DNA of 64,000 nucleotides, from assembly GCF_001507545.1 (NCBI RefSeq), contig NZ_LQBP01000004.1:1-64000 (forward strand), read 5' to 3'. A program made the translations under genes and the position numbers. Below, piece after piece: positions 15,953 through 36,197 of this stretch. The first letter of the stretch is position 1; the number at the start of each line of letters is the position of its first letter. The notes under the pieces are model-generated. The model saw only the letters and a list, made by a program, of their open reading frames with translations, searched no databases and was not told where the DNA came from. The DNA comes from Ruegeria profundi (lineage in GTDB: Bacteria > Pseudomonadota > Alphaproteobacteria > Rhodobacterales > Rhodobacteraceae).

Positions 15953-17296
15953 TCAGTTCAATATGTTCTTGTAGATCACGCCATCCTTCATGATAATCTT
16001 GAGATTGTCCGTGTCCGTTACCGCATCCAGTGTTTCCAAGGGATTGCCATCCACCAACAACAGATCAGCATATGCCCCTTCCTGAACAACACCCAACGGG
16101 CCCTCCTGATAGGGATTCTGGTTCGGACCGCTCATCGCAAAGAGCTCACCGGCATTACCTGTTGCCATCCTCACGATCTCACCCGGCGTGTACCATGGTA
16201 GCAGACGTTCCATCTGCTTTACTTGCTCGGCAAAGACATCCGGCGGAACAAAGAACATGTCGGTGCCATAAGTGACCTTCAGATCAGGAATCTCTTTGGC
16301 CCATTCGTAGACCTTGGGCGTGCCTTCGCAGACAATGGCGAGCTTGGAGTTCGAGAAATCGTCCAACTGCGGCTCCGAGCAAATGGTGAAGGGTTGTGTG
16401 CTGAGGAATACCCCCTCATCCGCCATACGCTGCAGGGTTTCCTTGTCGAGAAGCTGACCATGACCGACATCCTTGACCCCCGCATCAATGGCCTGATTGA
16501 TCGCCTCAGGGAAGTAGGCGTGGATGGTAACATAGCTCCCCCAGTTCTCCGCCGCAGAAACCGCGGCAGCGATCTCTTCCTCGGTGAACTGGATACCGAG
16601 AAGCGGGTCCGCCGGCGATGAATAGCCGCCACCGGCCGCGACTTTCACGTGCGATGCGCCTTTGCGGAGTGCTTCACGTGCAGCGGACAAAACCTCGGGA
16701 ACACCATCTACAAGATAGGCATGACCTTGCTCATAGAGCGGCTCGACCTTGCCCCCGAAACGGACATTTCGTTGGTTGGGCAAGCGGAAGTCTCCGTGTC
16801 CGCCAGTCTGGCTGACAATGCCACCAGAGGGGTAGATGCGCGGTCCGGCAATGCGGCCCTCGTCGATCGCCCTCTTTAGACCAAAGCTGTCGCCAGCCAT
16901 CTCGCGGATTGAGGTTATGCCGCGCATCAGCATTTCTTCGGCGTCGCCTGCAGCATAAATGTAATTGTAGCCGGGATCGCCCAACATCAATTGCATCTGC
17001 GGCAGAGAGGCAAACATGATGTGAGTATGCGTGTCCGACATGCCCGGCATCAGCGTGTAACCCTCGCCGTCGATGACTAGTCCACCGGCGACCGAGACAT
17101 CTTCCTCGGTGATCTGCGTAATGAGATTATCCGTCACGACGACGTTCATGTCTTCCATCAACTCAAGCGTCTGACCATCAAAGACATCGACGTTGGTGAA
17201 CAGAATCGGCCCGTCGGGCGCGTTATCCTGTGCAAAGGCAGACGTATGTGCGGCAAAGGCGAGGCCGACGGCGAGAAAGCTCAAGTTTTTGGGCAT
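15953..17296 (-). CDS. Exported metal-dependent amidohydrolase (imidazolonepropionase-like)
   Basis: A 447-residue amidohydrolase-superfamily enzyme with a Sec signal peptide (AHTSAFAQ). Metal-binding residues of the superfamily are visible: HTH in MSDTHTHIMF (about 84-93), a Lys likely carbamylated in GASHVKVAAGGG (about 210), His in VTIHAYFP (about 250), His in VGHGQLLD (about 271) and Asp in VTYGTDMF (about 345). Such enzymes hydrolyse amide or cyclic-amide bonds; the periplasmic substrate is unknown. The ATG at 17296 has GAGGAA upstream. It is the last of three exported amidohydrolase genes in the same direction and is paralogous to the enzyme at 53541-54902. Confidence 0.85.
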   Translation of the reverse strand: MPKNLSFLAVGLAFAAHTSAFAQDNAPDGPILFTNVDVFDGQTLELMEDMNVVVTDNLITQITEEDVSVAGGLVIDGEGYTLMPGMSDTHTHIMFASLPQMQLMLGDPGYNYIYAAGDAEEMLMRGITSIREMAGDSFGLKRAIDEGRIAGPRIYPSGGIVSQTGGHGDFRLPNQRNVRFGGKVEPLYEQGHAYLVDGVPEVLSAAREALRKGASHVKVAAGGGYSSPADPLLGIQFTEEEIAAAVSAAENWGSYVTIHAYFPEAINQAIDAGVKDVGHGQLLDKETLQRMADEGVFLSTQPFTICSEPQLDDFSNSKLAIVCEGTPKVYEWAKEIPDLKVTYGTDMFFVPPDVFAEQVKQMERLLPWYTPGEIVRMATGNAGELFAMSGPNQNPYQEGPLGVVQEGAYADLLLVDGNPLETLDAVTDTDNLKIIMKDGVIYKNILN

Positions 17297-17354
17297 CTGA
17301 TTTTCCTCTCGGTAGATGTTGATAGGTTCTGCATCATCGCGCCTCTTGTCCAGT

Positions 17355-18902
17355 TTATTCGATAATGGAACCGCGGATCGGAACGCCCGCCGGAATGTTC
17401 TGAACCACACTGTCATCCACGACGACCTGACCGTTGACGATCACGTACGGGATGCCGGTAGAAGGCAGTGAGTTTTCGCCAATTGTCGGAGTGGAATTAT
17501 CGGTCACGTTCTCGGGGTCGAAGATCGTGATATCGGCGGCCGACCCTTCCTGCAGGCGCCCGCGAATGCGCATGGCTGGGACATGATCCTCAAGAAACTC
17601 GGCCGGCTCATAGGTCATCTTGGAGATCGCCTGCATCAGCGTCACATTGTCATTTTCACGCGCCATGCGCAGGATGCGGGCGTGCGTGCCCGCGCCACGG
17701 GCGTGCCCGTTACCGGCTCCATAGGGCGTGTCGAACGTAGCGGTGAAGCCGAGCTTGTTGCCATCGTCATCGGTGATGATCCACGGCATGCCATCCGATC
17801 CCACGATGACGCCGGGGCGCGTAAAGGCCTCATCGATATACTCCTGCTTCATGGTGTACATCAGCAAATCGGTGGTCGGCGCTTCGGTACGAAGGCGATC
17901 GAACTCCTCGTTTGTCAGTGCTTCACCGGTCGCAGCAAGTTTGTAGTCCGAGGCCTGAATGCCCATACGCTCTTCGAAACCGGGCGCGTTGTAGTCCGCA
18001 TCAACATAAGTGCCGGCATACTGGTAGGGGTAGAACTCGCCCCGCACGTTCATGCCGTTGGCCCGCGCCGAGTCGATCAGGTCAAGGCACTGCTTTGTCA
18101 GGCCAAGGCAATTGCTGGGGATGTGGTGGATCAACATCGACACGTCGTTCTCGCGTGCGATGGTCATCATCTCGGTGATGCCCATAAAGCCGCTGGGCGG
18201 AACCTGCGCCAGATAGCGCACATGCGTTGTAATCGGCATGTCGTATTTCGCCGCCAGTCCGGTCACGGCCATGACCTCGGGGCTGCCCACAACAGTATAA
18301 TAGCCGATGGGATAGGCTACACCGAGTGCGCCCTGTTTCAGCTGCGCCTCGACCGCTGACAGGATCGCGGGCTCATCCATCGGATCGAAGGTTTTGGTCT
18401 TGAACTGCGCGCCATCGTTCATCGCAGCCCCGACAGCGGGGCTGTAGATGAAGCGGCCATCAGGTTCCTGTCCGTCTAACACAGCGACGCGGGCGCCAAC
18501 ATGCGCGGCATTCGTCCCGTAGTTGAGGAACGCCTTACCCTCCCAGAACTCGTAGAAATCTGCGACTGGATAGGCGCCGACTTCGAGGTCCATAGGTGTG
18601 GTCACGCCATCCCGCGCGTAAAGCTTATGGCCATATTCCGATTGCGCATGCGAGTGATAATCGATGAAGCCGGGCGCCACCACGTGGCCAGTAGCGTCAA
18701 TCACGCGCGCACCTTCAAGATCGTCCGTGCTGATTTCTGTGACGAAGCCGTTGTTGATGCCCACGTTCGCGATCTGGTCAAACCCGGTTTCCGGGTCCAT
18801 GACGCGGCCGTTGTTGATAACAATGTCAAAGCCCTGCGCGTGAGCCGCAGTTGCTGAGAGAGCTGTAAGGATCAGCGTGAGAGCTGTTGCGGTTTTTTTC
18901 AT
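17355..18902 (-). CDS. Exported D-aminoacylase-like amidohydrolase
   Basis: A 515-residue enzyme of the N-acyl-D-amino-acid deacylase type. After a Sec signal peptide (LSATAAHAQ) come the family blocks NGRVMDPETGFD, the metal motif HSH in GFIDYHSHAQSEYG (about 77-90), DGVTTPMDLEVGAYPV with its conserved Glu, His in THVRYLAQVPPSG, HH in LIHHIPSN and Asp in VGSDGMPW. D-aminoacylases release D-amino acids from N-acyl forms; periplasmic location suggests scavenging or cell-wall-derived substrates, which is inference. The ATG at 18902 has AGGAG. The gap to the paralogue upstream is 60 bp and to the next gene 58 bp, so the three probably form one operon. Confidence 0.85.
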   Translation of the reverse strand: MKKTATALTLILTALSATAAHAQGFDIVINNGRVMDPETGFDQIANVGINNGFVTEISTDDLEGARVIDATGHVVAPGFIDYHSHAQSEYGHKLYARDGVTTPMDLEVGAYPVADFYEFWEGKAFLNYGTNAAHVGARVAVLDGQEPDGRFIYSPAVGAAMNDGAQFKTKTFDPMDEPAILSAVEAQLKQGALGVAYPIGYYTVVGSPEVMAVTGLAAKYDMPITTHVRYLAQVPPSGFMGITEMMTIARENDVSMLIHHIPSNCLGLTKQCLDLIDSARANGMNVRGEFYPYQYAGTYVDADYNAPGFEERMGIQASDYKLAATGEALTNEEFDRLRTEAPTTDLLMYTMKQEYIDEAFTRPGVIVGSDGMPWIITDDDGNKLGFTATFDTPYGAGNGHARGAGTHARILRMARENDNVTLMQAISKMTYEPAEFLEDHVPAMRIRGRLQEGSAADITIFDPENVTDNSTPTIGENSLPSTGIPYVIVNGQVVVDDSVVQNIPAGVPIRGSIIE

Positions 18903-18962: not shown

Positions 18963-20522
18963 TCATTCAATGATCGGGTTGCGGATGGGTTTGCCTGGGA
19001 ACACGCGCTGCACAACCGAGTCGTCCACAACGACGGTGCCGTTGACGATCACGTACGGAATGCCCGTCGTGGGCAGAGCATTCTTGCCAAGCTCTAGTGT
19101 GGAATTGTCGGTCACTGTCTCCGGGTCGAACACGGTGATGTCCGCATCGGCGCCGACCTGCAACCGCCCTTTGCGGGCCATCTGTTCCACCCCGTGCTCT
19201 TCAAGGAACGCGGCCCATTGGTAGGACATTTTCGAGATCGCCTGCATCAGCGTCAGGTCGATCTTGCCTTCGCGTTGAAGTCGCAACATGATCCCGCGCG
19301 TGCCGGAACCGCGCGGATGGGTGTTGGCCTTGTCCCATGGCGTATCCCAATCGGTGACCAGCGCGCCGGTTTCAGGATCGGAGGCCGGAAAACAGTCGCA
19401 TCCGATTATCACTTCGGGGTTGGAGAGGGCTTTGTACATGTCCTCTTCCGTTACGTGATAGAACATGACGGGGCGGTGGGGCTCTTCCCTGAGATACTTC
19501 TCATAGGTTTCCTTGGTCAGGGTCTCGCCGGTTTGCGTGTCGATGATGTCCTCATAGGTCCGACCCATGTTGCGTGTCAGGTTATCGATCTGTAAGTAGT
19601 CAGCGGAAATCCCGGTGCCGGCGGAGCCGAAGTTATAGGGATACATTTCAAGCTGAACAGCAGCGCCCGCATCGTTCACATCATCGACGTACTCCATCGC
19701 CGGTTCGGTGACGCCAAGAGCTTGGCCCGTGAAATGGGCGATGATTGTTCCGCCGCCGTAGGTCGACGCCGGGTCCATGATCTCCATGAAGCCGAGCATG
19801 GCCGAAGCAGGCGGGGCCTGACTGGAAAAGCGGGTATGGATATGGGTGAAACTATTGTATTCGGCGGCAAGCTTCTGCATGCCGATCATGTCGATTGTGG
19901 TCGTGCCGTTGATCATGTACCCCACCGGCATTCCGATGCCGAGCGCGCCGCGTTTGAGGCCTTCTTCCACGACATCGAAGACCTTGGCGCGCTCTTCGTC
20001 AGTTACGATGCGTGTGCTCCAGTCAAAGCTGGTGACCTTGCCCGCAAAAACATCCGGAATGATGTTGCCCTTGTCCGAGACATATAAGGGATCAAACGTG
20101 AAGGTGCGGGCTGCGGCGCCAGAAACCGTGGCACCGTAGTTTAGCTGCGATGTTCCGTCGAGATTGTCGTACCACAGATCGACCGGATAAGCGCCAGATT
20201 CGAGATCAAGCGCGGTTGTCAGGCCATCGCGCAACGCGGCTTTCTGGCCAAAAGGCGAGTCAACCACATGAACATGCCCGTCGATGAAGCCCGGGGCGAC
20301 GACATGCCCGGTCGCGTCGATGGTGCGCGCCCCTTCAATCGCATCGGTCGTGATGGCGGTGATCACGCCATTGTTGACCCCGACGTTGGCGACCTGATCA
20401 AAACCGGTCTCAGGGTCCATGACCCGGCCGTTCGCGATTACAAGGTCGAAGTTCTCAGCATATGCTGCCGTGGCCGCGAAACCGGTCAATATCAACGAAA
20501 GTGCCGTTGCGGTTTTTCTCAT
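18963..20522 (-). CDS. Exported D-aminoacylase-like amidohydrolase (tandem paralogue)
   Basis: A 519-residue paralogue of the next gene, sharing the signal peptide style (MRKTATALSLILTG, cleavage near AAYAE) and the NGRVMDPETGFDQVANVGVN block. Metal motif HVH occurs in GFIDGHVHVVDSPFG, the conserved Glu in LDLESGAYPVD, His in IHTRFSSQAPPAS, His in IIAHFTGQ and Asp in IGCDCFPAS. The last motif differs from the neighbour (Cys-Asp-Cys), and substrate-pocket segments differ too, suggesting different acyl or amino-acid preference. The ATG at 20522 follows GAGG. First gene of the likely three-gene operon. Confidence 0.85.
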   Translation of the reverse strand: MRKTATALSLILTGFAATAAYAENFDLVIANGRVMDPETGFDQVANVGVNNGVITAITTDAIEGARTIDATGHVVAPGFIDGHVHVVDSPFGQKAALRDGLTTALDLESGAYPVDLWYDNLDGTSQLNYGATVSGAAARTFTFDPLYVSDKGNIIPDVFAGKVTSFDWSTRIVTDEERAKVFDVVEEGLKRGALGIGMPVGYMINGTTTIDMIGMQKLAAEYNSFTHIHTRFSSQAPPASAMLGFMEIMDPASTYGGGTIIAHFTGQALGVTEPAMEYVDDVNDAGAAVQLEMYPYNFGSAGTGISADYLQIDNLTRNMGRTYEDIIDTQTGETLTKETYEKYLREEPHRPVMFYHVTEEDMYKALSNPEVIIGCDCFPASDPETGALVTDWDTPWDKANTHPRGSGTRGIMLRLQREGKIDLTLMQAISKMSYQWAAFLEEHGVEQMARKGRLQVGADADITVFDPETVTDNSTLELGKNALPTTGIPYVIVNGTVVVDDSVVQRVFPGKPIRNPIIE

Positions 20523-25616: not shown

Positions 25617-26702
25617 ATGAACAAATCTGACATTTCTCAATTGTTTTACAACGATATGTCACGTCGTGCGTTCCTCGGCGCGCTTGCGGCTGTCGGTGTA
25701 GCGCCGCGAGCGATTGCACAGGGCAAACCGGCACCGGTTAACCTAGGTGCGATCAACCACACCGTGATCCATGCCTCGGACCCAATGCGGTCGGTTGAAT
25801 GGTATCAAGGGCTGTTCGGCATGCCGATCGTCGGCGACTTCGAGGATCGCGTGAACCTGCGCGTGGGCGATGGCCCCGCTTATCTGACGATCATGAAGGA
25901 AGCGACAGACTCGCCTCGCTGGGGCGAAGTCGGGCTTGCGCTCGATCCCGTCGATCCGCTTGTACCTGGCGATCCGGAAGGCTTTGCAGAGATTCTGAAG
26001 CAGCACGGTATGGAGCAGTCTGACGACCCCGGCCCGGGTGAGTTTTCGCTGACCATGCGCGGCCCTGAAAGCGGCGGCGCAGAGGGCGGCACGCCGGTGC
26101 TGATGATCGTCGATCCGTTTGGGCTGAAATACTCGCTGACGCACAAACTGAATTGCGGTGGTGGTGGCCCGCTGGGCACGGAATGCCGGCTAAGCTACCC
26201 TGTCGAAAGCCAGTTCAAGACCGTGGAAATCAACCACGCTACGCTCGGCATTACAGATACGGACAAAGGCAAGGAGTTTTACCAGACGCTCTTCGACATG
26301 CCGATCCGCGCATATCAAGGCGACACCACACCAGTCTACACGGTCTCAGGTTACAGTACGATCGTGCTATTCGATTTCAGCAATGATACCAATTTCCAAG
26401 GGATGGATCCGCAAATGGATCACACCTGTTACTCCATCGAGGATTACGACTTCAATCTCGTTCGCGCCAAGCTATCGGAATACGGGTTGGAAGATCTTGG
26501 CGATGTTTTCCGCGCCAGTGGTCCGTTACAGCACTATCACACGTCGCGTCGGCCAGACCGCGGCGGCGCTCCGGGTGGATCTTACGAGATTTATTGTACG
26601 GATCCCGACAACCTTGTTATCCAGATCCAGGACGTGACGTATTGCGGCGGTGGCGGCACAAACGGCGAAATCTGCGGCACTGCAGAAAATCCGTCGCGCT
26701 GA
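25617..26702 (+). CDS. Tat-exported two-domain VOC (glyoxalase/dioxygenase-like) protein
   Basis: A 361-residue protein with a Tat signal (SRRAFLGALAAVGVAPRAIA, about 15-34) and two vicinal-oxygen-chelate domains. Domain 1 begins AINHTVIHASDPMRSVEWYQG and domain 2 begins EINHATLGITDTDKGKEFYQT; each first strand carries the His that typically binds metal. Domain 1 ends with VLMIVDPFGLKYSLT and domain 2 with EIYCTDPDNLVIQIQD. A cysteine-rich CGGGG segment occurs in the linker and again near the C-terminus. The family includes glyoxalases and ring-cleaving dioxygenases; the reaction here is unknown. The ATG has GAGGAAAG upstream, and a terminator follows. Confidence 0.85.
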   Translation: MNKSDISQLFYNDMSRRAFLGALAAVGVAPRAIAQGKPAPVNLGAINHTVIHASDPMRSVEWYQGLFGMPIVGDFEDRVNLRVGDGPAYLTIMKEATDSPRWGEVGLALDPVDPLVPGDPEGFAEILKQHGMEQSDDPGPGEFSLTMRGPESGGAEGGTPVLMIVDPFGLKYSLTHKLNCGGGGPLGTECRLSYPVESQFKTVEINHATLGITDTDKGKEFYQTLFDMPIRAYQGDTTPVYTVSGYSTIVLFDFSNDTNFQGMDPQMDHTCYSIEDYDFNLVRAKLSEYGLEDLGDVFRASGPLQHYHTSRRPDRGGAPGGSYEIYCTDPDNLVIQIQDVTYCGGGGTNGEICGTAENPSR

Positions 26703-26820: not shown

Positions 26821-27519
26821 ATGTCTGCCGCCCTTCGTCTCAATGACCTGAATTTTGCCTGGCCTGGCGCAGGCCACGACATCTTGCACATCAAATCGCT
26901 TGCGCTGCAAAAGGGCGAAAGCCTTTTTCTGTATGGGCCAAGTGGTTGCGGCAAATCCACATTGCTGGCTGCCATTGCTGGCACCGTTAACATAGCACCC
27001 GGCGCAATCGTCGTTGCCGGGAAGGACGTTGGCGCAATGCGAGGTGGCGCCCGCGACAGGTTCCGAGGAGAGCACCTGGGCATGATTTTTCAGGTCTTCA
27101 ATCTTGTGCCGTGGCTCTCGGCACTCGAAAATGTGGTTCTGCCCTGCCGATACTCGGCAAACCGGGCTCGGCGGGCGGCACCAGATCCCTCGACGGCTGC
27201 GCAAGACCTGCTCACGGAATTGGGGTTGGCAGATCCGGCTGTCGCCGGCGCTCAGGCAGGGAGCCTAAGTGTCGGCCAACAACAAAGAGTGGCCGCAGCG
27301 CGGGCGCTCATCGGCAAACCATCTCTCATTCTGGCAGACGAACCCACTTCGGCCTTGGACGAAGATGCCAAGATCGCGTTTGTCGAATTGTTGCAGCGCG
27401 AATGTCGCCAAGCAGAAAGCGCGCTCCTGTTCGTCAGCCACGACCGCAGCCTTGAAAACCACTTCGACCGCGCCGTGAGTTTTTCCGAAATCAACCTGCC
27501 TTTGGAAAAGACATGCTGA
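26821..27519 (+). CDS. LolD/MacB-type ABC transporter ATPase (set A)
   Basis: A 232-residue ATPase with Walker A GPSGCGKST (about 40), Q-loop region MIFQVFNLVPW, signature LSVGQQQR (about 150), Walker B LILADEPT and H-loop SHDRS. This subfamily partners FtsX/MacB-type permeases. The ATG at 26821 is used; an upstream TTG at 26800 is less likely. The stop overlaps the permease start by 7 bp, which indicates translational coupling. It is paralogous to the ATPase at 32307-33014 in the Zur-linked set B, so a role in metal, probably zinc, acquisition is inferred. Confidence 0.88.
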   Translation: MSAALRLNDLNFAWPGAGHDILHIKSLALQKGESLFLYGPSGCGKSTLLAAIAGTVNIAPGAIVVAGKDVGAMRGGARDRFRGEHLGMIFQVFNLVPWLSALENVVLPCRYSANRARRAAPDPSTAAQDLLTELGLADPAVAGAQAGSLSVGQQQRVAAARALIGKPSLILADEPTSALDEDAKIAFVELLQRECRQAESALLFVSHDRSLENHFDRAVSFSEINLPLEKTC

Positions 27520-29030
27520 GCTTCGCGTGGAAAAGCCTTTGGAACCGACGGTTTGTCGCCTTACTTACGGTTCTGTCGATGGCGCTGAGCGTTGCCTTGA
27601 TCCTCGGCGTTGATCGTCTCCGCGGCGAGGCTCGTGCCAGCTTTGCCAATTCAGCTTCCGGGATCGATCTTATTGTGGCTGCACGTGACAATCCTGTTCA
27701 AATTCTAATGGCAACGATATTCGGGCTAGGCTCGACAAGTTCTGCGCTTGATTGGGATAGTTTCGAGATGGTCGAAGAACTCCCGGGTGTTGACTGGGCC
27801 GTCCCGGTCTCGATGGGCGACAATCATCGCGGATACCCGGTGATCGGCACCAAAGCGTCGTACTTCGATCACTTTCGGCATAGCGGGGGCGAGGCGCTGG
27901 TCTTCCGCGACGGTGTCCCATTTTCGGAAGCCGACGGTGCGGTGGTTGGGGCAGAAGTCGCCGCCCGGTTCGGTTATGAGACGGGTACCGTGATCGTAAA
28001 TGCCCACGGGTCAGGATCCGTTGCATTCGATCTCCACGACGAAGCGCCGTTCATCATTACCGGTATTCTATCGGCCACCGGAACGGCGGTCGACCGCATG
28101 GTATTCGTATCACTTGAGGGCTTCGACGCCTTACATGCCGCGCCTGAGACGCAGCCAATTGATCCATTTGCTTCAATGGAAGCAGAAGAACTGTTCAGTA
28201 GCGGTGAAATCGATGAAACGAATGCCGACGCGCACGCGGAGGAAGACCACGCGCACCAAGATAATGATCATCTACATGAAAATAATGACAATATTCATAT
28301 CATGCGGGACGGTCACGGTGATCAACACCATAACAAGGCCATCGGTGACAAAGAGGGTGAACAAAAATTCGGGCACGCTAGTGAGCTTGGTCATCAGGCA
28401 GATAAGCACGCGCATGACGAAAAACATGTGCATGAGAATGCGGAGCACCGCCACGTCTCAGAACATGTTCATGAACCTGCTCAGATTAACGCTGTTCTAG
28501 TAGGTTTGTCTCAAAGGACTGCTGTATTGGGTGTGCAGCGCGCGATTATGGAATACCCCGTCGCGCCGCTTACAGCGGTACTACCGAACGTCGCGCTCTT
28601 GGAGCTCTGGTCCATTACCGGTACGGCTGAAAGGGCGATGTTTGTCATGGCTTGGGCCGTCGCGGTTGCCAGTATTCTTTGCATGGTTACCATGCTTTCC
28701 GCCGCACTTGACACACGACGACGCGAGTTTGCAATCTTGCGATCGGTTGGCGCCACGCCTGTGGATATTTTCGGATTGATCGTGGTAGAAGCCACTATGG
28801 TTACATGCGCCGGCATCATTTTTGGCTTTGCGCTTTGTGTTGGGGCGCTCGCGTTCGCGGAACCGATGCTGGCTTCGCGCTTTGGTATCCGCATCGATTT
28901 TGGTTTGCCAAACCTCAAACAATTAGGTTTGGTGTTCGCGATATTTTTCGCCGGTCTTCTGGCTAGCCTCATCCCCGCATGGCGTGTCTATCGTATTACG
29001 CTCGCCGATGGACTGTCAGTAAGACTATAA
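27513..29030 (+). CDS. FtsX/MacB-type ABC permease with His-rich insertion (set A)
   Basis: A 505-residue permease with one N-terminal membrane helix, a periplasmic domain and three C-terminal helices (about 375-400, 425-450, 470-495), as in FtsX/MacB proteins. Within the periplasmic domain, residues about 239-322 form a His/Asp/Glu-rich segment with 19 histidines in about 87 residues, including DHAHQDNDHLH and HAHDEKHVHE. The paralogous permease at 33011-34261 (416 residues) has no such segment at the equivalent place. Poly-His loops bind zinc and other transition metals in ZIP, ZnuA and DUF2796 proteins, so this one probably captures metal in the periplasm. Coupled to the ATPase upstream and followed by the DUF3299 gene after 16 bp. 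Confidence 0.88.
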   Translation: MLSFAWKSLWNRRFVALLTVLSMALSVALILGVDRLRGEARASFANSASGIDLIVAARDNPVQILMATIFGLGSTSSALDWDSFEMVEELPGVDWAVPVSMGDNHRGYPVIGTKASYFDHFRHSGGEALVFRDGVPFSEADGAVVGAEVAARFGYETGTVIVNAHGSGSVAFDLHDEAPFIITGILSATGTAVDRMVFVSLEGFDALHAAPETQPIDPFASMEAEELFSSGEIDETNADAHAEEDHAHQDNDHLHENNDNIHIMRDGHGDQHHNKAIGDKEGEQKFGHASELGHQADKHAHDEKHVHENAEHRHVSEHVHEPAQINAVLVGLSQRTAVLGVQRAIMEYPVAPLTAVLPNVALLELWSITGTAERAMFVMAWAVAVASILCMVTMLSAALDTRRREFAILRSVGATPVDIFGLIVVEATMVTCAGIIFGFALCVGALAFAEPMLASRFGIRIDFGLPNLKQLGLVFAIFFAGLLASLIPAWRVYRITLADGLSVRL

Positions 29031-29046
29031 GAAAGGTTATTGCTAT

Positions 29047-29706
29047 ATGCTTCTACGTTTGTCCACTGCATTTGCTGGCCTGCTGGTAATGGGTAGTTTC
29101 GTCCAGGCGGAGCCCCGCATAGTCTACTGGAATGACTTGTCTCCACCGGCTGTTGCGTACACCAACCCGTTTGAAGGCATTAGCTCGGATCATATGAGCG
29201 GATTGCGTGAGTTGCTCCGGCTGCGTATGCAGATAAGCAATGGTGAAGCGGCGCTTTACAATGAGGCCGCAGCTTTACAATCGGATTTGGAGGACGCAGG
29301 ACTCGATGTTGAGTGGCTGTTTGCAAAACGCCTCGAAATAATGGAGATTCGAGAGTCGGTCGCTACTGGTGTCAATGAGGATTTGGTCGATACACGCGTT
29401 CGCATTCCTGGCTATTTGCTGCCACTCGAAGTCAGAGACCGAAAAGCTGTGGAATTTTTGCTTGTTCCAACGGTTGGAGCCTGTATTCACACTCCGCCTC
29501 CACCGCCGAACCAGGTTGTTCACGTAATGTATCCAGAGGGGGTTGAGATCTTCGGTCTGTACGACCCAATCTGGATCGAGGGCGACCTTAAAGCGCAAGC
29601 CACATTGCAAGATGTGCGTTACGTGGACGGAGAAGCCAAGGTTCAGGTCAGCTACGGCATGCATGCAGTGGCCGTCTCGCCATACAAGGCGGACACGGCA
29701 GAGTAA
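29047..29706 (+). CDS. DUF3299 exported protein (set A)
   Basis: A 219-residue protein with a Sec signal peptide (LLVMGSFVQAE). The C-terminal half is a DUF3299 domain, recognised by the PGYLLPLEV block and the strongly conserved VGACIHTPPPPPNQV (about 145-159). A Cys followed by His in this motif might bind metal. The N-terminal region (about 50-110) is helical with a coiled-coil look and is absent from the shorter set B protein. DUF3299 genes sit next to such ABC modules in zinc-regulated operons; a role in metal handling is inferred. Confidence 0.85.
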   Translation: MLLRLSTAFAGLLVMGSFVQAEPRIVYWNDLSPPAVAYTNPFEGISSDHMSGLRELLRLRMQISNGEAALYNEAAALQSDLEDAGLDVEWLFAKRLEIMEIRESVATGVNEDLVDTRVRIPGYLLPLEVRDRKAVEFLLVPTVGACIHTPPPPPNQVVHVMYPEGVEIFGLYDPIWIEGDLKAQATLQDVRYVDGEAKVQVSYGMHAVAVSPYKADTAE

Positions 29707-29741
29707 TGCAACTGACCTGGCACAATTAAAGAAGGCTAGCT

Positions 29742-29778
29742 AGAGACGGCCTTGTCATTTGAGGACGGCTCTTTTTTT
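29742..29778 (+). terminator. Terminator at the end of set A
   Basis: An imperfect hairpin (AGAG-GGCC on the left arm, GGAC-CTCT on the right) immediately followed by a run of seven T residues at about 29771-29778. It lies 36 bp after the DUF3299 stop codon and probably ends the set A transcript. Confidence 0.55.
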
Positions 29779-30035
29779 GCAAGAGATTTCTTGAGCGACG
29801 GGTATCGAAGCAGGTTGCGGTCAATTGTCCGGCCTGTTGACGCGGTGCATGTGACCGCTGGCCTTGATGAAGTCCGCATGCCAGGTGCCGATCAGAAGAT
29901 CGGACCTTAATGTCCAGACAAGACCACGGGCTGTCCCGGCTGCGGTCCCATTCGATAAGCCGTACGCCAGCAAGGTCCGCGACTTGGTCGTTCGCCTAGC
30001 CCATCACGCTGCATCGCGCGCCAACGGCCAGTTCG

Positions 30036-30506
30036 GTGAAGCTGCATTGCAGCGACGCGGCGACACAGAAGAGATCGCAACCCACTGCGCCGCGTGCCGA
30101 CAATCTGGACCGGCGATGGGAAGAAGTAATTCAGGTTGCAACCCAGATGTTCGACACGCCCAGCTCGTCCGCTCAGGACTTTATGAGTGGTGTCGAAAGC
30201 ATGTTCTTTGCAATGGCGATGATGGCGATCAAAAGAATGCGGCCATATATTTCCGAAGTCCTACGCCTGATCAAAACGACCAAGCAAAAGGACTACGAGA
30301 AAACGGCTGAAGAAGTTGGATATTCGAGAGCTGCAGATGAGTTTCTGAATCTTGCAGCCAAAGAATCCAAAATCTTGCGAACAACGGTTTCTGTTATGCT
30401 GAACTCCGGCCTTCAACTCTGGCGCAACCCATCCGCGGCAAGAGCCACCCAGGGCAATGACATCAACTTTGAAGATTTGCGTCGGCTGGCGAGCGATCTC
30501 TCCTGA
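30036..30506 (+). pseudogene. Unknown gene truncated by IS6 remnant
   Basis: An open frame of 156 codons whose middle (about residues 24-145) has the composition of a real, mostly helical protein (MSGVESMFFAMAMMAIKRM and a Lys-rich stretch KTTKQKDYEKTAEEVGYS). I do not recognise the family. The last few codons read into the IS6 remnant that starts near 30481, so the natural C-terminus is missing. No convincing ribosome-binding site precedes the ATG at 30036, and the N-terminus may also be incomplete. The 260 bp between the set A terminator and this frame shows nothing recognisable. Confidence 0.4.
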
Positions 30507-31132
30507 TTGAAATGGTTGTAGACGGAAGAGTGGACGGAGGCGAATTTCTGCAAACTTCGCATACGCCTGAAACGCTGCATAGCGCGTTCTCTTCGTCGGA
30601 ACGGCAGGTGCGAATTCTCAACGCCGTTGTTGAGCAACCTGCCCGTCATTTGTTTGTCGAGTGCGCTCAATTTTCTGAGAACTGCCATGTAAGAAGCGAA
30701 GCGGTCCGTGAAGATTTCTTCTGCGCATACATGGCGCTTCTTCAATTTCTTGAGGAATTTCAGTGCTGCAGCTTTATTTCGACGTTTGGTGAAAACCGCT
30801 TCCAGCACCTCACCTTCGTGATCTACGGCACGCCAGAGATAGTGCCGCTTTCCATTCACCTTCACGAAAACCTCATCCACTTGCCACTTCTATTTCGAGA
30901 ATGCGCGCAGCCGCTGGACGCGCTTTCTTCGGATCTCTGATGCGAACATCGGGCCAAACCTGTTCCACCAATAGCGGACGGTTTCATGGCTGACATCGAT
31001 CCCGCGCTCGTGCAGCAAATCTTCGACATTCCAAAGCGAGAGCGGAAATCGGATGCACAGCTTCACCGCAAGGCGGATGATCTCAGGGCTAGTTTTGAAG
31101 TTTTTGAAGGAGGCAGGTCTGGTCATGGGCAA
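30481..31132 (-). pseudogene. IS6-family transposase (copy 3), nonsense codon and truncated
   Basis: The N-terminal part (31132 to about 30893) matches the intact transposases up to RAFSK, then a TAG replaces the Trp codon found in the other copies (TGG to TAG). Reading continues in the same frame with the DDE core (DEVFVKVNG, FTDRFASY, NGVENSHLPF). The C-terminal tail is lost where the element is truncated. It carries more substitutions than copies 1, 2 and 4, so it is the oldest copy. Confidence 0.85.
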
Positions 31133-31183
31133 AAGCTACGCAACCACCCTGCCCCGCTCAACCTTAGTTCTTCTGACAAGACC
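30481..31183 (-). mobile_element. IS6-family element, copy 3, left end missing
   Basis: About 700 bp similar to the other IS6 copies. The right end (CTGACAAGACC at 31173-31183) is intact, but the first roughly 120 bp of the left end, including its terminal repeat, are absent; similarity starts near TCGGCTGG at 30482. It has the same orientation as all other copies and directly abuts the Zur-controlled promoter. Confidence 0.85.
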
Positions 31184-31203
31184 GTCGGTTCAGCGTCTTG
31201 TCA

Positions 31204-31227
31204 TTTGTTATTTTATACAATAACAAA
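31204..31227. promoter_or_regulatory. Zur-box-like palindrome
   Basis: A perfect 9-bp inverted repeat, TTTGTTATT and AATAACAAA, separated by TTATAC, lies 25 bp upstream of the Zur-type gene. It fits the GTTAT/ATAAC-type Zur boxes known from alphaproteobacteria. It would let the repressor control itself and the whole set B operon. It starts only 21 bp after the IS6 right end. Confidence 0.8.
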
Positions 31228-31251
31228 TCTACACCCAAAGGAGCGTTCCAG

Positions 31252-31638
31252 ATGCGAAAACAAGCCTCCAAGCGACAGTCCGACATCCTCAAAGTGCTTC
31301 GATCTTGTGACCGGCCCATGACGGCATATCAAATTCTACAACAACTTCAGAGCGATGAGCCAGATATCGCCCCGCCAACTGTTTATCGCACTTTGACGGC
31401 ACTGACCGATCAGGGACGTGCACATCGGCTCGAGTCGATCAAGGCTTTCGTGCCCTGCCGCTGTGACCATGCCGAAAGCATCCCTGTCCTGGCGATTTGT
31501 GACGTTTGCGGGTCCGTCGAGGAACATGACGGAAGTGGGCTCATGCAATCGATTGACGCGCTCGTCATACCCAGTGCGTTTAGGCCGAAGCGACACATTG
31601 TCGAAGTTCACGGGCACTGTCACGTCTGCGCCGCCTGA
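31252..31638 (+). CDS. zur: Fur-family zinc uptake regulator (Zur-like)
   Basis: A 128-residue Fur-superfamily repressor. The winged-helix part (about 1-70) contains MTAYQILQQLQ and PPTVYRTLTALTDQGRAHRLES. The dimerisation part carries two CxxC pairs of the structural zinc site: CDVCGS (about 84-89) and CHVCAA (about 123-128). The HHDH-type motif of iron Fur is missing and the RCDHAE-like CRCDHAES segment is present, which favours Zur. The ATG at 31252 has GGAG upstream. Its own promoter holds the palindrome at 31204-31227. DUF2796, ATPase, permease and DUF3299 genes follow in the same direction. Confidence 0.85.
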   Translation: MRKQASKRQSDILKVLRSCDRPMTAYQILQQLQSDEPDIAPPTVYRTLTALTDQGRAHRLESIKAFVPCRCDHAESIPVLAICDVCGSVEEHDGSGLMQSIDALVIPSAFRPKRHIVEVHGHCHVCAA

Positions 31639-31668
31639 CTTAAAAGCATTCAATCCAAAGGAAACGAT

Positions 31669-32310
31669 ATGAAACGCACCCTCTCATTTGCAGTCGCCGT
31701 AGCTATTGCACACCCCGCCTTCGCCGAAGACTCCCGCCAACTCGACGCTCATGAGCATGGGGTGGGTGAGTTGAGCATCGCAATAGAGGGAACAACTGTT
31801 GCGATGGAACTACACGCGCCCGGGGCCGACATCGTCGGGTTCGAGTACGAAGCGAAAAGCGCTGAAGATCGGGCGGCAATTGATGCCGCTGTCGCGACGC
31901 TTGCCAAACCACAGGATCTTTTCGTTTTTCCGGGAAGCGCGGAATGTACCGTGACCCAGGCCAGTGCCGAACTTGAAAGCGAAGAGGACCACGAGGAGCA
32001 TTCCGAGGGTGACAAGCACGAAGAACATGACGACCACGCTGAAGGCGGGCATGAGGATGAAAAACATGAAGAGCATGCTGAGGGCGAACATCACGATGAG
32101 CATGCAGACGAGGCAGGCCACACGGAGTTCCATGCGGAATATGTCCTGAGCTGCGCGAACCCATCGGCCATCGACGAGATCACGTTCGCCTATTTCGAGA
32201 CGTTCGATAATGCACGTGAGCTGGAAGTGCAGATTGTTACATCCGCCGGGGCGCAGGCATTTGAAGTCGAGAGAGACGAACCTGTGCTGGATCTACGCGG
32301 CATGTTATGA
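31669..32310 (+). CDS. DUF2796 His-rich periplasmic metal-binding protein (ZrgA-like)
   Basis: A 213-residue exported protein (signal AIAHPAFAE, cleavage about 20). The mature protein begins with the DUF2796 hallmark DAHEHGVGELSIAIEG, then has a His/Glu/Asp-rich segment (about 103-153) with 13 histidines, and ends with a beta-rich part. In Vibrio the DUF2796 protein ZrgA belongs to a zinc-regulated ABC system that helps growth under zinc limitation (established knowledge; I cite no figures). The ATG has AAAGGAA upstream. Its stop overlaps the ATPase start (ATGA), so the proteins are probably made together. Confidence 0.88.
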   Translation: MKRTLSFAVAVAIAHPAFAEDSRQLDAHEHGVGELSIAIEGTTVAMELHAPGADIVGFEYEAKSAEDRAAIDAAVATLAKPQDLFVFPGSAECTVTQASAELESEEDHEEHSEGDKHEEHDDHAEGGHEDEKHEEHAEGEHHDEHADEAGHTEFHAEYVLSCANPSAIDEITFAYFETFDNARELEVQIVTSAGAQAFEVERDEPVLDLRGML

Positions 32311-33014
32311 ATTTGCGCAGAGACGATCCAATTCTGAACATGAGCGGCGTCCGATTCCAATGGCCGGGTCGGACGTCCTTCGCGCTCAACGTTCCGGCGT
32401 TTTGCCTTCAGCGAGGTGAAACCGTTCTTCTCCTTGGCGAGAGCGGATCGGGAAAATCCACCTTGTTGTCGTTGATCTGCGGCACTCTTCAAACGGGTAC
32501 CGGAACCATAGCTGTTTCGGGCACGGACTTAGCCGCGCTGTCCGGTGCCGGGCGGGACCGGCTGCGCGCAGAACAGATCGGCGTGATCTTCCAACAGTTC
32601 AATTTGCTGCCATTTGCGACGGTTTCTGACAACATATTGCTGCCGCTTCGTTTCGCTCCCAACCGAAGATCGCGTACCAAGATGCCCTTCGAAGAAGCGA
32701 CTCGGCTCTGTCGATCACTTGGCTTGCCCGACGACCTACTGGGTCAACGCGCAGCATCGCTGAGCGTCGGGCAACAGCAACGTGTGGCCGTGGCCCGAGC
32801 ATTGATCGGTCAGCCACCGCTCATGATCGCGGATGAGCCGACTTCGTCACTGGATGCCGGCAGCCAAAACGCCTTTCTGGACCTGATGTTCGGTCAACTC
32901 GGGGAGATCGGCGCGTCGTTGTTGATGGTTAGCCATGACCCGAGGCTCGGCGATCGCTTTGACCGTGTCGTTGAGCTGTCGGACATCGCCATGATCGAAG
33001 GTCGCGCGGCATGA
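32307..33014 (+). CDS. LolD/MacB-type ABC transporter ATPase (set B)
   Basis: A 235-residue ATPase with Walker A GESGSGKST, signature LSVGQQQR, Walker B LMIADEPT and H-loop SHDPR. It overlaps both neighbours by ATGA (4 bp each), a sign of tight translational coupling. It is paralogous to the ATPase at 26821-27519. Its place in a Zur-controlled operon with DUF2796 supports a zinc-related transport role rather than lipoprotein release. Confidence 0.9.
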   Translation: MNLRRDDPILNMSGVRFQWPGRTSFALNVPAFCLQRGETVLLLGESGSGKSTLLSLICGTLQTGTGTIAVSGTDLAALSGAGRDRLRAEQIGVIFQQFNLLPFATVSDNILLPLRFAPNRRSRTKMPFEEATRLCRSLGLPDDLLGQRAASLSVGQQQRVAVARALIGQPPLMIADEPTSSLDAGSQNAFLDLMFGQLGEIGASLLMVSHDPRLGDRFDRVVELSDIAMIEGRAA

Positions 33015-34261
33015 TCATCCGTCTGGCCATTGCCTCGCTTTCGGCACGTGCGCTGACTGTCGGCATGACTATTCTGGCAATCGCACTCTCGGTCACCTTG
33101 TTCCTAGGTGTCGAGAAGATCCGCACAGGAGCAAAGACCAGCTTCTCGGACACGATTTCAGGAACTGATCTCATCGTCGGCGCGCGTTCTGGCTCGGTGC
33201 AACTGCTACTCTATTCGGTTTTTCGCATTGGCAATGCCACCAACAACGTCACTTGGGAGAGCTACCAGGAGATCGCGCAGCGTCCCGAGATCGAGTGGAT
33301 CGTCCCGATCTCTCTTGGTGACAGCCACCGCCAGTTTCGCGTGATGGGAACGTCAACGGCGTTCTTCGAGTACTACCAGTATCGGCAGGATCGGAGCCTT
33401 GAGACCGCAGAAGGCGCCCTCATGGACGACCTGTTCGATGCCGTAATCGGCTCCGACGTCGCGGACACGCTAGAATACTCTGTCGGGGACCCGATCGTTG
33501 TCGCACATGGACTTGCGTCCTTTACGGAACATAAAGACCAGCCATTCCGGGTCTCGGGAATATTGAAGAAGACGGGCACCCCGGTTGATCGGACGGTTAT
33601 CGTCAGCATGGAAGCTATCGAGGCAATCCACGTGGACTGGAAAAGCGGCGCAAAGGTTCCCGGTAAAACAACCCCTGTCGATATGATCCGTCAGATGGAT
33701 CTGACGCCAAAGGCCGTAACGGCGGCGTTGATCGGAGTGAAGAGCCCCCTGCAAACTTTTACGCTTCAGCGGGCGGTCAATGACTATACCGAGGAGCCGT
33801 TGCTGGCGATCCTACCCGGTGTTGCGTTGCAAGAACTTTGGGGCATCGTCGGCATCGCGGAAACGGCTTTGCTCGCGGTTTCGGCGATGGTCGTTGTCAC
33901 CGCCCTGATCGGAATGATGGCCACCATCTTCTCCAGCTTGAATGAACGTCGCCGCGAAATGGCGATCTTTCGCGCCGTGGGGGCACGACCATCGAACATC
34001 CTCGGGATGCTTGTGTTGGAAGCCATGCTGACAGCCGCGGTTGGCGCGCTTCTGGGTTTCTGCTTCCTCTACGTTGGTCTTTTGGCCGCCCAACCCGTGC
34101 TCGACAGTGCTTACGGCATCTGGTTGCCGATAGAGCCCCCCAAGTGGCGCGAGATCGGCGTCGTCCTCGCGGTCATCGCTGCTGGCGCAATTGTGAGCCT
34201 CGTTCCAGCATACCGGGCCTACCGTCTGTCACTAGCGGACGGTATGATGGTTAAGTCATGA
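33011..34261 (+). CDS. FtsX/MacB-type ABC permease (set B)
   Basis: A 416-residue permease with the FtsX/MacB topology: one N-terminal helix (about 10-32), a periplasmic domain, and three C-terminal helices (about 290-315, 335-365, 380-405). Conserved blocks with the set A permease are SGTDLIVGARSG near residue 50, WIVPISLGDSHR, and RREMAIFRAVGARPSNI. It lacks the His-rich insertion of set A; in this operon the His-rich function is in the separate DUF2796 protein. The start codon overlaps the ATPase stop codon. Confidence 0.9.
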   Translation: MIIRLAIASLSARALTVGMTILAIALSVTLFLGVEKIRTGAKTSFSDTISGTDLIVGARSGSVQLLLYSVFRIGNATNNVTWESYQEIAQRPEIEWIVPISLGDSHRQFRVMGTSTAFFEYYQYRQDRSLETAEGALMDDLFDAVIGSDVADTLEYSVGDPIVVAHGLASFTEHKDQPFRVSGILKKTGTPVDRTVIVSMEAIEAIHVDWKSGAKVPGKTTPVDMIRQMDLTPKAVTAALIGVKSPLQTFTLQRAVNDYTEEPLLAILPGVALQELWGIVGIAETALLAVSAMVVVTALIGMMATIFSSLNERRREMAIFRAVGARPSNILGMLVLEAMLTAAVGALLGFCFLYVGLLAAQPVLDSAYGIWLPIEPPKWREIGVVLAVIAAGAIVSLVPAYRAYRLSLADGMMVKS

Positions 34262-34340
34262 GAGGACCGACCATGGATCGGAGAGCTTGTGTATCAGGCT
34301 CAACAGAAACAGCAAGCAAACGTATTTTGGAGCAAGTCGA

Positions 34341-34847
34341 ATGGTGAAGCATCGATTGACACGCAGAGGCGTCCTAGCAGGAGTAGCCGCACTTTCGTCC
34401 GTGCCATTTGCAGCCGTGGCTGCCGATACGGTCGACCTTGATTGGGATGATCTTTTGCCCCCCGGAACCAAGACGATTCCGAATTCGCTGCGCGGGATTG
34501 TGGAACATGACGAATCCTCGCTTGTCAGCCAACAGCCGATTTCTTCTGGCGTCCGAACGGACTGGAATGGCAAAACTGTTCGGTTGCCGGGTTTCGTTGT
34601 GCCGGTCGAATATGACGGAACAGGTGTCACGACATTCATTCTCGTTCCATATGTTGGCGCTTGCGTGCACGTACCGCCGCCTCCGGCCAATCAGCTCGTT
34701 CTGGTCACGACTATGCGACCATACGAGTTGGAAGGGTTGTTTGAGGCCGTGAAAGTGACCGGCAAGCTTGGAACGGCTTCGACATCTACAGAACTAGCCG
34801 AGGTCGGATATACACTGGTCGCAACGAAAATCGCACCCTACGACTGA
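34341..34847 (+). CDS. DUF3299 exported protein (set B)
   Basis: A 168-residue protein with a Tat-type signal (LTRRGVLAGVAALSSVPFAA) and a DUF3299 domain: LPGFVVPVEYDG and the hallmark VGACVHVPPPPANQL (about 112-126). I use the ATG at 34341, which has TGGAG 8 bp upstream. The set A paralogue uses a Sec-type signal and has an additional helical region, so the two differ in export route if the predictions are right. Last gene of the Zur-controlled operon. Confidence 0.85.
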   Translation: MVKHRLTRRGVLAGVAALSSVPFAAVAADTVDLDWDDLLPPGTKTIPNSLRGIVEHDESSLVSQQPISSGVRTDWNGKTVRLPGFVVPVEYDGTGVTTFILVPYVGACVHVPPPPANQLVLVTTMRPYELEGLFEAVKVTGKLGTASTSTELAEVGYTLVATKIAPYD

Positions 34848-35379: not shown

Positions 35380-36197
35380 GGTGCTGTCAGACGAATTCGA
35401 ACCAGTCTCAGTTTGCCGCGAAAACCGCGAACCTATCCGGAACAAAGTTGACGCCACTCGCTAAGAGCGGCGGTGCGTGTCTGCTTGAAGGAGTCTCGGC
35501 TGGTTAGCGATCTTTCCTGGTTGAAGTGGTTGTAGACAGAGGAGTGGACGGAGGCGAACTTCTGCAAACTTCGCATGCGCCTGAAACGTTGCATGGCGCG
35601 TTCGCGTCTTCGAAACGGGAGGTGTGAATTCTCGACGCGGTTGTTTAGCCACCTGCCCGTCTGTTGTTTTTTGAGAGCACCCAAATCTCTAAGGGCAGCC
35701 TTGTAGGAAGCGAAGCGATCTGTGACGATCTCTTCGGCGCAGCCGTGCCGCTTCATCAATTTCTTGAGAAATTTCAGTGCTGCAGCTTTGTTACGGCGCT
35801 TCGTTACAACTGCTTCCAGCACTTCGCCATCATGATCTACAGCCCGCCAGAGGTAGTGCCTCTTGCCATTCACCTTCACAAAAACCTCGTCCACGTGCCA
35901 CTTCCATTTCGAGAATGCGCGCAGTTGCTGAACTCGCTTTCGTCTGATCTCAGAAGCAAACATCGGACCGAACCTGTTCCACCAATATCGGACGGTTTCG
36001 TGGGAAACGTCGATCCCGCGTTCGTGCAGCAGATCTTCGACATTCCGAAGCGAGAGTGGAAACCGAATATACAGCATCACCGCAAGGCGGATGATCTCGG
36101 GGCTGGTCTTGAAATACTTGAAGGAGGCAGGTCTGGTCATGGGCAAAAGCTACGCAACCGCCCTCCCCCGCTCAAGCAATGTTAATCTGACAAGACC
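35380..36197 (-). mobile_element. IS6-family insertion sequence, copy 4 (intact)
   Basis: An element of 818 bp with left end GGTGCTGTCAGACGAA and right end CTGACAAGACC. It is flanked on the left by the diverged IS6 fragment and on the right by a truncated hsp20 gene. No matching 8-bp target duplication is seen, which suggests that recombination or deletion followed insertion. Confidence 0.9.
35433..36146 (-). CDS. IS6-family transposase (copy 4)
   Basis: A 237-residue transposase, full length and with intact DDE residues (VDEVFVKVNG, VTDRFASY, NRVENSHLPF). It is very close to copy 1 with scattered substitutions. Because all copies share the orientation, this active-looking transposase could mobilise the segments between them by directly oriented IS6 recombination. 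Confidence 0.95.
   Translation of the reverse strand: MPMTRPASFKYFKTSPEIIRLAVMLYIRFPLSLRNVEDLLHERGIDVSHETVRYWWNRFGPMFASEIRRKRVQQLRAFSKWKWHVDEVFVKVNGKRHYLWRAVDHDGEVLEAVVTKRRNKAAALKFLKKLMKRHGCAEEIVTDRFASYKAALRDLGALKKQQTGRWLNNRVENSHLPFRRRERAMQRFRRMRSLQKFASVHSSVYNHFNQERSLTSRDSFKQTRTAALSEWRQLCSG

Follow-up and report, generated by a model that had tools for sequence, protein, structure and literature searches.

Zrg systems are the closest described relatives of the genes considered here. In Vibrio (ZrgABCDE, with zrgE encoding a DUF3299 protein) and in Pseudomonas aeruginosa (PA4063-PA4066), a MacB-type transporter of the ATP-binding cassette (ABC) class, split into an ATPase and a permease, is found together with a DUF3299 protein. 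How these systems handle zinc is unsettled: Vibrio work argues for uptake, whereas Pseudomonas work argues for export. The zrgA gene is required for normal zinc-free growth of V. cholerae in a znuA background (PMC9820375) and in V. parahaemolyticus a zrgA mutation impairs growth when zinc is lacking (PMC9817125), while work on P. aeruginosa PA4065 favors export of a pyochelin-cobalt complex, with cobalt accumulating in PA4065 mutants (PMC11481552). Apart from an OB-like fold, the structure of PA4066 (4hsp) offers no hint of what the protein does (PMC8561739). We analyzed a 64,000-nucleotide stretch of the Ruegeria profundi genome (contig NZ_LQBP01000004.1, positions 1 to 64,000; hereafter the window), which carries two gene sets of this kind, set A and set B (Table 1). 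What the analysis establishes most firmly is that set A lacks ZrgA and, as a rule, has a His-rich tether in its permease. With moderate confidence, we read set A as a ZrgA-independent branch of Zrg-type ABC systems in which a tethered permease loop supplies putative metal capture.

Set B is a standard Zrg system. It matches the Vibrio and P. aeruginosa systems in combining ZrgA (formerly DUF2796) with an ATPase, a permease and a DUF3299 protein, and it has a Zur-box-like site and an adjoining Zur-like regulator, by which it is probably controlled. The initial annotation had assigned the same families to set B, and Pfam and NCBIfam recovered all of them. Set A likewise has the ABC ATPase, the MacB/FtsX permease and the DUF3299 protein typical of Zrg systems, but it differs from the described systems in having no ZrgA, no Zur box and a His-rich permease loop. 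A Pfam scan of the open reading frames of the window found no PF10986 (ZrgA) match in the set A operon, as the initial annotation had noted, and none inside the permease. The set A DUF3299 protein, for which 4hsp (PA4066) is the nearest solved structure, also differs from its counterparts. It belongs to another clan and has a longer N-terminal part: the stretch before the CxHxP motif has a median of 130 amino acids in set A and 90.5 in ZrgA-linked proteins.

Aligned over 507 columns, the two permeases show 32% identity, with a large gap at residues 209-322 of the set A protein. Residues 206-324 hold 20 His, and residues 236-322 have 19 His in 87 positions versus 6 in the other 418 (binomial p = 2.6e-17). 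The contrast with set B, whose permease has a 31-residue linker with 1 His at this position, agrees with what had been noticed from the sequence. The insert is of low complexity and rich in H, D, E and N. It is closed by an HxHEP motif, kept in 9 of 10 aligned set-A rows and missing from several rows of a larger set. The conserved residues H165, H175 and H208 were considered as a Zrg-specific metal site and rejected, as four DUF3299-free MacB relatives keep all three.

An AlphaFold2 model built with 62 aligned permeases had a mean predicted local distance difference test score of 84.9, and the score was below 50 across nearly all of residues 236-316. In a Foldseek search, the model fell among MacB, LolCDE, HrtBA and FtsEX, with MacB (5gko, E = 1.6e-15, TM-score 0.52 over the query) as the top hit. 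All 50 matches listed were MacB/LolC/FtsX-type systems. As in type VII (MacB-like) ABC transporters, a periplasmic core domain follows the first transmembrane helix, and the permease shares the predicted fold of MacB, LolCDE and HrtBA. It differs from MacB in that the ATPase is a separate chain, and from this group as a whole in the His-rich loop and the DUF3299 partner. The MacB/LolC/FtsX fold class comprises exporters and mechanotransmitters and has no known importer. Because no ZrgA domain was found and disorder is predicted, we take the insert to be an unstructured tether beside the periplasmic domain of this MacB-type permease and not a fused protein. A built-in metal-binding domain, as proposed initially, would be too strong a name for it. 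The proposed fusion of capture and translocation was not borne out either, given the lack of a ZrgA fold and a labile loop with 1-34 His across set-A members, 10 of 43 of which have at most 6.

Expanded His loops are known from other metal transporters and metal-binding proteins. RcnA, of the NicO group, also carries one in a membrane metal transporter, and its length differs between species (PMC11247825). RcnA belongs to an unrelated family, however, and its loop is predicted to be cytoplasmic, whereas that of set A lies beside the periplasmic domain. ZnuA has a His-rich loop as a periplasmic zinc protein, but on the soluble binding protein of an ordinary ABC importer. A search of open-access literature in the sections available, with subscription journals mostly outside its scope, gave no account of a His-rich loop in a Zrg-type permease or of a link between DUF3299 and amidohydrolases.

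Table 1. Features of the window discussed in the text, with strand and basis of assignment.
Feature	Position	Strand	Basis or remark
Set A, whole	26821-29706	+	ATPase, permease, DUF3299
Set A ABC ATPase (MacB/LolD/DevA-like)	26821..27519	+	PF00005, 2.9e-29; ATG at 26821
Set A permease, 505 aa	27513..29030	+	MacB_PCD + FtsX; His-rich loop beside periplasmic domain
His-rich loop DNA (permease residues 239-322)	28227..28478	+	19 His in 84 aa; predicted disordered
Set A DUF3299 protein, clan 1	29047..29706	+	PF11736; tree
Set B, whole	31252-34847	+	Regulator, ZrgA, ATPase, permease, DUF3299
Set B Zur-like Fur-family regulator	31252..31638	+	PF01475; best NCBIfam match Zur NF008646, below cut-off
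Set B ZrgA (formerly DUF2796)	31669..32310	+	PF10986, 8.5e-53; NF047873, 209.8 bits, above cut-off of 185
Set B ABC ATPase	32307..33014	+	Pfam
Set B permease, 416 aa, MacB/FtsX, no loop	33011..34261	+	Pfam; 1 His in linker
Set B DUF3299 protein, clan 2	34341..34847	+	Pfam and tree; frame open from TTG at 34287
Zur-box-like palindrome 5' of set B	31206..31225	.	AT-rich inverted repeat; 1 mismatch to TGTTATNNTATAACA
Amidohydrolase, signal-like N-terminus (by eye)	18963..20522	-	Amidohydro_3; about 6.3 kb from set A
Amidohydrolase, signal-like N-terminus (by eye)	17355..18902	-	Amidohydro_3
Amidohydrolase, signal-like N-terminus (by eye)	15953..17416	-	Amidohydro_1

The occurrence of set A was examined at several taxonomic levels. 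In the family, 149 genomes were scanned for a set-A-like permease, which was present in nine including R. profundi; the other eight proteins were 56-71% identical to it among the matches listed. Profile searches with PF11736 hit 38 of 289 genomes from the class and 60 of 299 from the phylum, and 80 regions (L116-L195) were hand-chosen around the stronger hits. A third MacB lineage (L053-L056, DUF3299-free) was left out of comparisons on ZrgA. All 51 permeases with ZrgA in the locus had 1-3 His in the linker, whereas 11 permeases without ZrgA in the locus had 8-45. Nine of the 11 are of set A; the other two, with 35 and 45 loop His for the pair, are L190 and L191 (genomes G644 and G577), from within the phylum but from a different class. 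Some loci have neither ZrgA nor a rich loop, namely L126, which belongs to the set-A clade (2 His), L138 (4 His) and L141 (5 His), as well as L119 and L120, whose contigs begin at or near the ATPase gene.

When named genomes were scanned, 49 loci were recovered, of which 47 are set A, and further loci came from three plasmids. Seven of these named contigs duplicate loci of the earlier survey. The hosts are mostly Rhodobacterales (Ruegeria, Shimia, Tropicimonas, Defluviimonas, Pseudothioclava and others), with Roseibium and a gammaproteobacterial metagenome-assembled genome (MAG) in addition. ZrgA was found in none of the 50 named set-A loci, two of which (L254 and L256) start inside the permease and cannot show it, while several contigs are short and two pairs are near-duplicates; the same search did find ZrgA in the outgroup loci L257 and L258. 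These results support the suggestion, made from this one locus, that set A is a distinct ZrgA-less architecture, and they show it to recur in a widespread, mostly Rhodobacterales clade. A constant pairing of set A with a neighboring DUF2796 gene, which would have spoken against that suggestion, was looked for and did not appear. Of the original proposal, the Zrg assignment of set B and the distinct ZrgA-less architecture of set A are supported, and the fusion of a capture protein is not.

Loops differ widely within set A: their His counts lie between 1 and 34 and their lengths between 32 and 157 amino acids, rows cut inside the permease aside. By eye, the loops of L038, L191 and L142/L262 look tandemly repeated. 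A single clade of set A with L190 and L191 is not rejected by the approximately unbiased test (p = 0.225), and hence we claim no independent loop origin for these two loci. The clearest separate origin can be argued for genome G338, because its His-rich insert lies at another site of the permease, before the strand leading to the GTPxD motif. A Fur-family gene comes first in the G338 operon, at the place expected for ZrgA, followed by ATPase and permease genes, and ZrgA is found neither at the locus nor by the PF10986 search of the genome, in an assembly that is interrupted within the His repeats. ZrgA is present in G223, a genome of the same family.

The PF10986 search was extended to whole genomes of 43 set-A hosts (L226 left out), and ZrgA was absent genome-wide in 24 of them. 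No match was found in the genomes G644, G577, G338, G273 and G369, and the positive controls G653, G661, G491 and G223 all (4/4) had ZrgA; G048, also included in the search, was kept out of the comparison. As a separate observation, R. profundi encodes a stand-alone ZrgA-family protein without a His-rich loop (contig C9, L204, 5808-6338), divergent from imelysin-, bacterioferritin- and di-heme oxidase-like genes, named by eye only. Two other loci of the class, L122 (G330) and L158 (G630), have a weak Zur-like match, ZrgA and DUF3299, with no ATPase or permease at the locus.

Loop composition was then compared with the presence of ZrgA elsewhere in the genome, using a table compiled by hand from the locus and genome searches. 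ZrgA is kept in 9 of 10 genomes with at most 6 loop His and in 10 of 33 with at least 7 (Fisher p = 0.002, with the cut-off picked after the data were seen); at cut-offs of 5, 10 and 12 the p values were 0.03, 0.03 and 0.35. Kinship matters for this trend, because a single Shimia-like branch accounts for nine of the ten loop-poor rows. Independent contrasts over the 43 genomes gave r = -0.30 (p 0.04-0.06), so the fall in loop His where a genome keeps ZrgA elsewhere is borderline. The most telling pair is formed by the sister loci L211 (30 His, no ZrgA) and L240 (4 His, ZrgA), which share the same gene neighborhood.

These comparisons bear on the possibility that the low-complexity loop has an accessory role, as a buffer or sensor that does not stand in for ZrgA, in a branch that never needed that protein. 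The variation of the loop in His content and length, its tandem-repeat look in some members and the finding that the His-rich loop of ZrgA itself is dispensable fit such a role. It is harder to reconcile with the lack of a rich loop in all 51 permeases that have ZrgA in their locus, with the second insertion site that evolved in G338 and with the tendency of loop His to drop where ZrgA is present. We consider an accessory loop possible but somewhat doubtful.

Zur sites were analyzed as an indication of zinc regulation. Among 44 operons whose first gene is zrgA or zur-like, 25 are preceded by a box matching at least 11 of 13 positions (own count). In R. profundi, sites cluster at znuA/zur- and cobW-like genes (L259; names by eye) and at set B, not at set A. 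The pattern with up to 2 mismatches gave 25 matches in the genome and 25 in a backward control; when 3 mismatches were allowed, the window had 5 matches versus 3.6 expected. Single weak matches therefore mean little, and we relied on one-mismatch sites and on clustering. Among the 48 named set-A loci in which the upstream region can be read, 11/13 is reached at L231 and L235 only. L231 is the gammaproteobacterial MAG, and there the box is accompanied by a divergent zur-like gene. The boxes at L190 and L191 reach 12/13 and 13/13. A Zur-like sequence, TGATCTACAAGAACA (10/13; L038/L042/L043 and some named loci), was rejected, as by eye it codes for the conserved amidohydrolase end VIYKN. A zinc link thus appears good for some ZrgA-less His-loop systems, and it is not seen for most of the roseobacter clade. 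Apart from these sites, contig C2 of the same genome encodes a ZnuA-like protein with a very long His-rich loop (L259, 3843-4988; names by eye), adjoining a second zur-like gene, znuCB-like genes, two CobW-like GTPases and Zur-box-like sites.

In one reading, along the lines of the initial annotation, set A imports zinc and captures it with its tethered loop. The growth phenotypes of zrgA mutants in V. cholerae and V. parahaemolyticus and the Zur boxes at some ZrgA-less His-loop systems agree with import. On the other hand, all Foldseek matches listed fall in a class without a known importer, no box of at least 11/13 is present at the set A of the window or at 46 of 48 named set-A loci, and the P. 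aeruginosa homologue has been reported as an exporter (PMC11481552). We regard zinc import as unlikely.

Several observations also weigh against our own reading of set A, in which the loop takes over from ZrgA. At the set A of the window, the best Zur match is 8/13 (p = 0.79), with none within 3 mismatches. The His-rich loop of ZrgA is not essential in V. cholerae (PMC9820375), so His loops may be accessory. Ten loop-rich genomes also keep ZrgA, including that of R. profundi (20 His; ZrgA in set B), and of the 10 of 43 set-A members with at most 6 loop His, one (L234, a MAG, 2 His) also lacks ZrgA. L043 (12 His, ZrgA) and L229 (9 His, no ZrgA) are off the trend, and L138 and L141, outside the clade, combine a genome-wide lack of ZrgA with just 4 and 5 linker His. 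Sign tests relating loop His to ZrgA over independent pairs were not significant and are underpowered. Genome completeness is given for 10 of the 43 set-A genomes (99-100%) and for none of the other 33.

The genes around set A suggest a connection with secreted hydrolases. Neighbors were counted within 4.5 kb after near-duplicate contigs (L209, L217, L222, L223, L225, L227, L241, L252 and L255) were dropped. An amidohydrolase is near 20 of 51 set-A loci versus 2 of 50 ZrgA loci (Fisher p = 1.8e-5, a test that ignores kinship), 1 of 10 other ZrgA-less ABC loci and none of 4 DUF3299-free MacB relatives. It is also near 14 of the 42 stand-alone genes for DUF3299; six of these 14 are second genes of this kind within set-A loci. 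On the set-A tree (without L209, L237, L254 and L256) the amidohydrolase label changes 5 times, 4 of them forced by starred branches. In L038/L042 (= L255/L227) and L236 the amidohydrolase gene ends about 40 bp before the ATPase frame. Neighboring proteins were also hand-picked against probably spurious antisense frames, leaving 79 of 142 at 38 selected set-A loci and 103 of 191 at 50 ZrgA loci. Among the first 25 families listed, the set-A neighbors include 15 for each of two amidohydrolase models (possibly overlapping), 4 M24, 3 MBL, 2 M81 and 3 HlyD proteins, and the ZrgA neighbors 3 per amidohydrolase model, 3 M24 and 5 CobW. Annotated set-A neighbors include an alkaline phosphatase family protein and an arylsulfatase. 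OprB porins are near 5 of 51 set-A loci, none of 50 ZrgA loci and 6 of 42 stand-alone DUF3299 genes.

The DUF3299 proteins themselves fall into two clans in a quick tree of 84 of 158 rows (Shimodaira-Hasegawa-like approximate likelihood ratio test support of 96 for the split). Clan 1 contains all 14 sampled set-A proteins, L190, L191, a NicO fusion and 11 of 13 amidohydrolase-linked rows (six of these from set-A loci), as well as 3 of 24 stand-alone rows, 2 of 6 ZrgA-less ABC rows and 1 ZrgA-linked row. Clan 2 holds 23 of 24 ZrgA-linked rows and the rest. R. profundi has three further DUF3299 genes, all clustered with amidohydrolases and OprB-like porins (assigned by Pfam for L007 and by similarity clustering for L006). 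The NicO fusion is one of its proteins, a 558-residue DUF3299-NicO chain with its own His-rich stretch (L006, 9584-11260, contig C13), and its gene adjoins three amidohydrolases and a porin.

From these neighborhoods, set A, or a NicO-type transporter instead, might move metal out or hand it over in the periplasm via DUF3299 to secreted metallohydrolases, with the loop as a metal reservoir. The amidohydrolase association and its repeated change on the tree argue for this, as do clan 1, which joins set A with amidohydrolase-linked rows, the NicO fusion and His-loop rows outside set A, the other hydrolase and HlyD neighbors, and a fold class of exporters and mechanotransmitters. The case is nevertheless drawn from gene neighborhood throughout, and the nearest amidohydrolase in the window is some way from set A (Table 1). 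The Shimia branch lies among housekeeping genes, and the M24 peptidases beside it adjoin ZrgA loci too (4 for set A versus 3). A mobile accessory setting (IS6 family) could gather genes, and zinc starvation would account better for the Zur boxes at L190, L191 and L231. Supply of secreted hydrolases is a possible explanation, to which we give less than even weight.

Set A might instead export a metal-metallophore complex, a function suggested for the PA4063-PA4066 system of P. aeruginosa, which is of the same gene types and fold class. The cobalt accumulation in PA4065 mutants (PMC11481552) is in line with it. HlyD-type adaptors are near 7 of 51 set-A loci, none of 50 ZrgA loci and 2 of 42 stand-alone DUF3299 genes. 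The adaptor gene is thus near only a minority of set-A loci, which further separates set A from the MacB group, and no HlyD/MacA adaptor gene lies within 4.5 kb of set A in the window, so that a MacAB-TolC-like tripartite arrangement is not seen there. We consider metallophore export improbable for set A.

Some further features surround the two gene sets. Just 5' of set A lies a gene for a glyoxalase-superfamily protein with a Tat-like signal (25617-26702), and a terminator-like hairpin was seen by eye between this gene and set A. A conserved, secreted-looking protein of about 350 residues (CGFHNYxPQPTLxDRL) is encoded 3' of set A in L208, L209, L212, L216, L217 and L238; Pfam gave no match for two examples. 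Set B is bracketed by two same-strand copies of an IS6-type transposase gene (DDE_Tnp_IS240; 30413-31132 and 35433-36146), 84% identical over 300 nt and with the first split into two frames. Because such copies flank it, set B may have arrived as a compound element. Similar transposases cluster in 11 loci of the set-A survey, the window among them.

For set A as a ZrgA-independent branch of Zrg-type systems, the following mechanism can be proposed. A split MacB-fold (type VII) transporter, composed of ATPase and permease, would work with a periplasmic DUF3299 protein. The disordered His/Asp/Glu-rich tether in the periplasmic part of the permease would take over the metal capture of ZrgA, concentrating zinc or a related ion next to the permease. 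Driven by ATP hydrolysis, the periplasmic domain would then move, and the ion would pass on via DUF3299. In this scheme metal binding, the identity of the ion, the direction of transport and the role of DUF3299 are all putative.

A more speculative extension, which we put forward tentatively, is that DUF3299 clan 1 with a His-loop permease or a fused NicO transporter forms an ATP-driven periplasmic metallation pathway for secreted amidohydrolases and envelope metalloenzymes. Such a pathway would be distinct from zinc uptake, and its mobile His-rich module would shift between soluble protein and transporter. MacB-type periplasmic metal handling for secreted metallohydrolases would reconcile the fold of the permease with its gene neighbors. 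The association of DUF3299 with amidohydrolases and with NicO provides a genomic lead on the role of this family. For Zrg systems, with their conflicting indications of uptake and export, a natural branch that lacks ZrgA isolates the contribution of this protein and makes it testable.

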